Source: Fusobacterium sp. IOR10 (GTDB lineage: Bacteria > Fusobacteriota > Fusobacteriia > Fusobacteriales > Fusobacteriaceae). Taken from it: a DNA stretch of 64,000 bases. This document shows, piece after piece, positions 181 to 1,352 of the stretch. Every line of letters starts with the position of its first letter. Positions within the stretch are counted from its first letter, which is position 1. Location of the stretch: positions 1 to 64,000 of the forward strand of contig NZ_WJWY01000011.1 of assembly GCF_010367435.1 (NCBI RefSeq), written 5' to 3'. The notes beneath the pieces were generated by a model, which was not told where the DNA came from, did not search any database, and was given only the letters and a program-made list of their open reading frames with translations. Position numbers and translations under genes: made by a program.

Positions 181-1155
181 TTATAGCATTTTATTTCTAT
201 TAAGCCAATAAGTTATAAATCCACTTATAACAACTGATAAAACTATCACTAGGGCAAAACCAAAATGATTTCTTGCAAAGGGAACAGAAACATTCATTCC
301 CCATATCCCTGAAATAATAGTAGGTATAGCTAAAACAACTGTAATAGATGTTAATCTCTTCATTACATTGTTCAAATTATTTGACATAATAGTTGAAAAA
401 GCATCTCTAGTTCCTCTTAAAATACTAGAATAAATATCAGCCATTTCAATAGCTTGTTTTGTATCAATTATTACATCGTCTAATACTTCCATATCATCTG
501 GATATTTTTTAACAAACTGCATTCTCATAATTTTGTCTAATACTAATTCATTAGATTTTAATGAAGTTTTAAAATATACCAAACTCTTTTCTAAATCCAA
601 TAAAAGTAATAGTTCATCATTTTCCATATTTTTCTTTAATCTTGTTTCAATAGCATCACTTACACGACCTATTTGTCTCAAGTAATACAAATAATAAGAT
701 GTATTTCTAAAAAGAAGTTGAAGTATAAATCTTGTCTTTTTATATGTGAAAAACTCTTTGATTCTTCCTTTTACAAATTCATCTATAAGAGGAAACCTCT
801 CTGTAGATATAGTGACAATATTGTCCTTTAGTAAAATTATTCCTAGAGGAAGAGTTGTAAAGGAACATTTATCTCCTTCACTGTGAAGAGGCACATCTAT
901 AATCAACAATAATATGTCTCCATCTATTTCCAAACGAGATTTTTCTTCCTCATCTAGAGCTGCTTTAATATGTTCTTCAGGAATTTCTAATATATTTTGT
1001 AGTGCTAAGATTTCTTCTTCATCTGGATCTGTTAGAGATATCCAGGTATTTTTTTCTTTTAAAATTGTTGGATCAATTTCTTTATGGCTATCTTCGTCTC
1101 TAAAATAAAGATAGTCCAACTTGAAATTTTCATCAGTTTTAATAACTTGTAACAT
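181..1155 (-). CDS. corA: CorA family Mg2+/divalent cation transporter
   Basis: This is a 324-residue inner-membrane channel protein for passive Mg2+ (possibly Co2+ or Ni2+) uptake. It has the long acidic and helical cytoplasmic N-terminal region typical of CorA, then two membrane segments at the C-terminus. The signature GMN motif (about residues 286-288) sits at the end of the first segment and is followed by the second helix and a basic tail. I chose ATG at 1155 because GGAAGGTG lies at the right distance before it. The in-frame ATG at 1170 would add five residues and has no ribosome binding site. A short ORF with its own strong ribosome binding site lies just upstream (1208-1252). The gene is followed by a clean terminator, so it ends its transcript. 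Confidence 0.9.
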   Translation of the reverse strand: MLQVIKTDENFKLDYLYFRDEDSHKEIDPTILKEKNTWISLTDPDEEEILALQNILEIPEEHIKAALDEEEKSRLEIDGDILLLIIDVPLHSEGDKCSFTTLPLGIILLKDNIVTISTERFPLIDEFVKGRIKEFFTYKKTRFILQLLFRNTSYYLYYLRQIGRVSDAIETRLKKNMENDELLLLLDLEKSLVYFKTSLKSNELVLDKIMRMQFVKKYPDDMEVLDDVIIDTKQAIEMADIYSSILRGTRDAFSTIMSNNLNNVMKRLTSITVVLAIPTIISGIWGMNVSVPFARNHFGFALVIVLSVVISGFITYWLNRNKML

Positions 1156-1207
1156 AATTTCACCTTCCATAATATACTAGACCCTTATTATGAAAAGTAA
1201 TAAAGGT

Positions 1208-1252
1208 TTAATATTTTTTTTTATTATTATTCCACCAGGAATATGGGTCCAT
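1208..1252 (-). CDS. Putative 14-residue leader peptide upstream of corA
   Basis: This short ORF encodes MDPYSWWNNNKKKY and ends in TAA 52 bases before the chosen corA start. The sequence before its ATG is TAAGAGGTGA, an almost complete anti-16S match, with 8 bases to the ATG, so translation initiation looks strong. A TATAAT can be read about 20 bases further upstream on the same strand. Seen directly: start, ribosome binding site, stop and position. Known from other bacteria: Mg2+ transporter genes such as Salmonella mgtA and corA carry short leader ORFs that regulate them. Inference: this ORF may play a similar role here. The DP near the start and the tandem Trp are notable. It could also be a non-functional ORF in a transcribed leader. 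Confidence 0.45.
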   Translation of the reverse strand: MDPYSWWNNNKKKY

Positions 1253-1352
1253 TTTTTTATTCACCTCTTAAAATATTATAATTATTAAAATCTTTACACT
1301 ATATTGTACTAAAATTTCACTAAAAAGTAAACCTTAAATAATATTATAATCT

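Follow-up and report, generated by a model that had tools for sequence, protein, structure and literature searches.

A short leader ORF and a predicted three-segment RNA switch before corA of Fusobacterium sp. IOR10, with similar leader peptides before magnesium transporter genes of Fusobacteriota and Clostridia

Sensing of Mg2+ by leader peptides is established for the enteric transporter genes mgtA, corA and mgtB. MgtL, the leader of mgtA in E. coli and Salmonella, senses Mg2+ through ribosome drop-off at the residues E2-P3-D4-P5 (PMC11282234), and completed translation of mgtL, or of the corA leader corL in the same two bacteria, represses the transporter (PMC11552253). MgtL acts mainly by Rho-dependent transcription termination; CorL, which has a UUG start and lies inside a long leader, also works with Rho. 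In the third system, the mgtC-mgtB intergenic ORF mgtQ of Salmonella, control is purely translational: the ORF has a strong Shine-Dalgarno (SD) sequence, Asp2 and Glu5, and is associated with alternative hairpins hiding or freeing the mgtB SD (PMC8092293). Lastly, the M-box before pe20 of M. tuberculosis precedes a conserved uORF (uORF2, Rv1805A) in which a proline is likewise conserved, and whose peptide is reported to be mycobacteria-specific (PMC12810186). Among the open-licence papers we found no description of such leaders in Fusobacteria or Clostridia. The "mgtE motif" described in PMC11109978 is a Thioalkalivibrio RNA.

The corA locus of Fusobacterium sp. IOR10 lies on the minus strand of the window (the whole stretch of 64,000 nt analysed here). 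We consider it likely, with a probability of about two in three, that its leader is MgtL/CorL-like and acts by translational attenuation, low cytoplasmic Mg2+ being the likeliest signal. The locus is composed of the following features:

1303 to 1331, minus strand: promoter-like site TTTACT-17-TACAAT for leader and corA, a candidate matching the consensus at 9/12 positions
1261 to 1269, minus strand: Shine-Dalgarno sequence of the leader ORF (AAGAGGTGA), 8 nt upstream of the ATG; GAGGTG is invariant in seven species
1208 to 1252, minus strand: leader ORF of 14 codons (45 nt), peptide MDPYSWWNNNKKKY, with ATG at 1252-1250 and stop TAA at 1210-1208; present a single time in each of the 7 species' genomes, ahead of corA
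1198 to 1207, minus strand: segment 1 (ACCUUUAUUA), directly after the leader stop, pairing with 1190-1181 on the evidence of covariation
1181 to 1200, minus strand: segment 2, of which 1190-1181 pairs with segment 1 and 1200-1186 (UUACUUUUCAUAAUA) with segment 3, according to folds, energies and pair counts
1160 to 1174, minus strand: segment 3 (UAUUAUGGAAGGUGA), which includes the corA SD and is paired with 1200-1186 in the minimum-energy fold
181 to 1155, minus strand: corA, a CorA-family Mg2+ transporter (Pfam PF01544, E 5e-56; orthologues), with a start at 1155 common to relatives

The original prediction had placed a 14-codon ORF with a strong ribosome binding site directly before corA; its coordinates and its SD agree with that description, and, its pattern being matched in 7/7 genomes, the ORF is confirmed as real and more than a chance occurrence. 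The functional start of corA is probably the one at 1155 (MLQVIK..), not the in-frame ATG at 1170, and the gene's own SD is therefore GAAGGTG (1166-1160). As this site does not look clearly weaker than that of the leader, the further claim that the leader has the stronger ribosome binding site could not be upheld. An Rfam search of the window leader returned no M-box (ykoK, RF00380) or other element, and the M-box was found in 0/7 genomes of the genus. Nor does the minus strand carry a terminator-like site from 1252 to 1155, as a trp-type attenuator would; a role of the Trp-Trp pair as tryptophan sensor was rejected, the pair not being conserved and most species having Leu-Cys. In three genomes of the genus, including that of the window (G000, G004, G006), the search found no mgtE, and corA may therefore be their main Mg2+ importer.

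Conservation was assessed in seven related species of this Fusobacterium genus, a small number, with a search pattern consisting of an SD followed by ATGGAC-NC-NNR-TTCC. Exactly one match per genome was obtained in all seven, always directly before corA, and none in the genomes of 34 further relatives. The upstream neighbour varies among species, and the promoter, leader ORF and hairpin remain with corA, TTTAC and the -10 region of the promoter-like site being conserved in 7/7. The peptides, 11-19 residues long, start with MDPYSWW, MDTYSWW, MDTYSPW, MDTYSLC (three genomes) or MDTSSLC. Met-Asp and the position of the stop codon are invariant; length, Trp-Trp and Pro3 are variable. Two traits singled out by the original prediction as distinctive do not hold as such: Trp-Trp is common only to the window and its nearest sister species, and the Pro of Met-Asp-Pro is unique to the window genome (Pro6 occurs in G002), what is kept being Asp2 and, in the relatives discussed below, Pro5. 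No second acidic residue accompanies the universal Asp2 near the start. A functional small protein, for example one binding the transporter, would account for the conserved start and the strong ribosome binding site; we regard it as scarcely credible, since likeness is limited to the first five residues and length and remainder vary freely.

At the codon level, the corA leaders are more constant than the peptide requires. The third positions of GAC and TCC are fixed in 7/7 leaders and ACG is kept in 5/7, a retention of rare codons seen at 1252-1230 of the window and in its relatives, although in the window ACG accounts for 1% of Thr, GAC for 15% of Asp and TCC for 11% of Ser codons. Four-fold sites of corA itself are only ~50% alike between lineages, with synonymous sites near saturation, so that codons or RNA, and not the peptide alone, must be constrained in these leaders. 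The synonymous-biased conservation that the original prediction proposed to look for is accordingly absent when corA leaders of the genus are compared with one another, and is found across the mgtE and Clostridial leaders described below. Two alternatives build on this constancy. The same attenuator might respond to another signal, ribosomes slowing on the conserved rare codons (GAC ACG TAT TCC) and reporting elongation speed, tRNA charging or antibiotics instead of Mg2+; the rarity and fixation of these codons against the divergence of corA, as well as the single acidic residue, speak in its favour, and we nevertheless hold it to be unlikely for reasons given with the mgtE leaders. Alternatively, the conserved nucleotides could form a small RNA element (GGA/UCC, CAC/GUG) sensing an ion or binding a factor, coding being incidental. 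This is distinctly improbable: the corA leaders are indeed constant at the nucleotide level and GGA pairs with UCC in the consensus fold, but the pairs comprise 3 bp and are invariant, and for that reason have no covariation to support them.

Returning to translational attenuation, the stop codon of the leader is separated from the downstream segment 1 by 0-5 nt in the seven species, while the ORF itself varies from 11 to 19 codons. The hairpin between segments 1 and 2 has 10-13 bp; with its arms aligned by hand, 96.7% of cells are paired and 4 pair positions are altered on both sides, a result equalled by 1 of 500 shuffles. The helix between segments 2 and 3, which buries the corA SD, displays little covariation beyond G-U changes. 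Both mutually exclusive folds are present in 7/7 species, and at most 3 of 1000 shuffled sequences contain both. When segment 1 was covered in order to mimic a ribosome at the stop codon, the cost of opening the corA SD rose from 0.7-3.6 to 4.0-9.9 kcal/mol in 7/7 species (energies computed at 37 °C and without Mg2+ dependence). Shuffled versions of the covered stretch matched the native one in 0-8% only, and a shuffled segment 1 seldom freed the SD. By computation, the leader has two RNA structures that exclude each other and are linked to translation of the ORF.

From this arrangement we infer the behaviour of the ribosomes and the direction of control in vivo. Ribosomes completing the leader ORF would terminate at its stop and cover segment 1, whereupon segment 2 would pair with segment 3 and bury the corA SD, switching corA off. 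Should they pause or drop off within the first 5-7 codons, segment 1 would stay free, the hairpin between segments 1 and 2 would form, and the corA start would be open, switching corA on. Because the leader ORF ends before segment 1, its translation can only prevent the first hairpin, and the direction of control follows from this geometry; in the folding model, production of the transporter thus probably depends, through refolding of the RNA, on translation of the leader. The signal, we infer, would most likely be low cytoplasmic Mg2+, which, in the manner of enteric MgtL, would weaken ribosomes where the peptide begins with Met-Asp-x-x-(Pro/Ser). In the corA leader of the genus, which has one acidic residue and Ser for Pro at position 5, the destabilising motif is consequently incomplete. 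The same geometry bears on translational coupling, in which ribosomes ending the leader would re-initiate at corA and the ORF would raise corA expression. The short distance from ORF end to corA (52-69 nt in the seven species) and the raising of mgtB by mgtQ translation (PMC8092293) are compatible with it, but the whole of the sequestering helix lies beyond the end of the ORF, and in the calculations a ribosome on the stop codon favours this helix instead of opening it, which makes coupling very unlikely.

Compared with MgtL, the locus shares a short ORF before an Mg2+ importer, with early drop-off expected to turn the transporter on (PMC11282234, PMC11552253), and an acidic residue 2, to which relatives add an acidic residue 4 and Pro5, at positions matching E2-P3-D4-P5 (PMC11282234). 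It differs in its predicted readout, the transporter SD being buried instead of transcription being terminated, in its genes (corA, mgtE) and phyla, and in the lack of D4/P5 in the Fusobacterium corA version. As with CorL, a leader ORF precedes corA, and its efficient translation, which in the CorL system lowers corA (PMC11552253), is predicted to do so here; unlike the Rho-dependent CorL leader, the predicted switch here is compact, translational and of three segments, with the stop codon adjoining the first. With mgtQ it shares a short ORF with a strong SD and Asp2, alternative hairpins hiding or freeing a transporter SD, and a purely translational mode of control, predicted here (PMC8092293). 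The mgtQ fold, however, has four segments, the mgtB SD is freed when a ribosome occupies the ORF, and translation of the ORF is needed for expression, whereas here the leader ORF ends before a switch of three segments and its completion should, as predicted from the folds, close the SD.

Leaders of the same type occur before another transporter gene. MDTYP leader ORFs precede mgtE in three genomes of the same Fusobacterium genus, and MDSYP(K/Q)R leader ORFs precede it in Cetobacterium-type genomes, making MD[ST]YP uORFs present at 12 of 30 mgtE loci in all; a similar uORF is absent before mgtE or corA in three Cetobacterium-type and several Fusobacterium-type genera. Their codons differ synonymously (GAT/GAC, ACC/ACT/AGT, TAT/TAC), so that there the peptide is what is conserved. 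The three-segment switch is found in 12/12 of these leaders, built from sequence unrelated to that of corA: in the energy test the SD opening cost is 0.3-6.2 versus 9.2-14.0 kcal/mol, and at most 4 of 200 shuffles were as good, except for one leader (L245) with 26. An MDx-Y-(P/S) pattern applied irrespective of the downstream gene matched short ORFs at 17 sites where mgtE or corA follows; three further short ORFs with a match lay at other places. The corA leader is therefore tied to Mg2+ transport and not to corA alone. These leaders also bear on the two alternatives raised above: they have the same peptide start with other codons, and the peptide class is tied to Mg2+ transporters and not to biosynthesis genes, which argues against a rare-codon signal, and they retain the peptide but not the nucleotides of the supposed RNA element. 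Being natural replicates of unrelated sequence, the leaders of corA and mgtE make it possible to test directly whether ribosome stability itself is the Mg2+ sensor. Relative to the enteric systems, they have a different predicted readout (SD burial) and follow one simple rule, namely that the stop codon adjoins segment 1.

Two corA leaders from other Fusobacteriaceae genera, MDGSQKLSVRKR and MDCFNCDDDSKYKPP, were submitted to the energy test and the switch was not found. The leader ORF MDCFNCDDDSKYKPP (L017, genome G008), just before corA, encodes three consecutive Asp and a Pro pair and, from its sequence, is a strong candidate for ribosome destabilisation. The ORF MDGSQKLSVRKR (L013, genome G012) is followed by TTTGGACAA, TTGTCCAAA and TGGACAA, possibly a competing-helix set, to which the energy test gave no support.

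The peptide type extends to Clostridia. An SD-preceded uORF starting with [MV]-[DE]-x(x)-P was present at 39 of 75 Clostridial corA loci, while among the remaining genes of these loci and of the window 2 of 271 had one (Fisher p ~4e-28, kinship among genomes being ignored). A search of 341 genomes for M[DE]xxP, blind to the downstream gene, gave 33 matches, the reversed control pattern giving 6; on inspection of all 33, 4 proved to be internal to long ORFs, and each of the 29 short ORFs stands before an Mg2+ transporter gene (14 corA and 15 mgtE, the latter assigned by Pfam for four representatives and by sequence similarity for the others). The two sets overlap in part (e.g. L193 = L092). A loose MDxD/GP pattern was discarded as too unspecific. 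In the 59 distinct uORFs, residue 5 is always Pro, residue 2 is D or E and residue 4 is D/G in 48, with synonymous codons used freely; the acidic/Pro motif (E2-P3-D4-P5 type) is complete in many Clostridial leaders. Together with the conservation and the covarying switch at the uORF stop, the recurrence of this peptide type before mgtE in the genus and before corA and mgtE in Clostridia supports the original suggestion of an attenuating leader peptide before an Mg2+ transporter gene.

An M-box aptamer lies upstream of the uORF at 12 distinct loci of 40 scanned, before corA or mgtE (L054, L059, L064, L092/L193, L112, L181, L190, L200, L209, L211, L212, L213), and two Mg2+ sensors may possibly be combined in one leader. 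The order of M-box and conserved uORF with a conserved proline recalls M. tuberculosis pe20 (PMC12810186), although the peptide there is reported to be confined to mycobacteria and the Fusobacterium genus has no M-box. Among 27 Clostridial corA leaders the folding is not uniform, 6 switching as in Fusobacterium and 14 in the opposite sense; a single mechanism for all of them was rejected, and the switch mechanism is consequently not extended to them. Intrinsic terminators were not consistent across the Clostridial leaders. A fluoride riboswitch match was noted near one Clostridial corA locus (L207:271-342).

Tiny leader peptides resembling Met-Asp-x-x-Pro, among them the one before corA of the window, form a widespread and, it appears, undescribed family, and many unannotated leader ORFs probably precede Mg2+ transporter genes. 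Whether M-[DE]-x-x-P marks a new family of nascent-peptide Mg2+ sensors across Fusobacteriota and Clostridia, controlling the unrelated importer families corA and mgtE through translational attenuation in Fusobacteria and, in Clostridia, partly alongside the M-box, is in our judgement evenly balanced. If so, the idea established in enterics would apply in two other large groups and, taken with MgtL, ribosome destabilisation by acidic/Pro starts would serve bacteria in general as a gauge of Mg2+.

CorA relatives in viral contigs were also examined and added nothing. Matches to ATGGACACGGATCCC in another Fusobacteriaceae genus were rejected as leaders, since they represent the N-terminus of a CNNM/CorC protein. 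Proteins of this family (Pfam CNNM, CorC_HlyC, CBS) start with MDTDP, MDTGP or MEPDP, an MgtL-type motif, at loci of another Fusobacteriaceae genus (L218, L219) and of another family of the same order (L230, L231). A ribosome-destabilising N-terminus has been reported for E. coli CorC (PMC12421838), and at low Mg2+ the start of an Mg2+ efflux-type protein may therefore hold back that protein's own synthesis.
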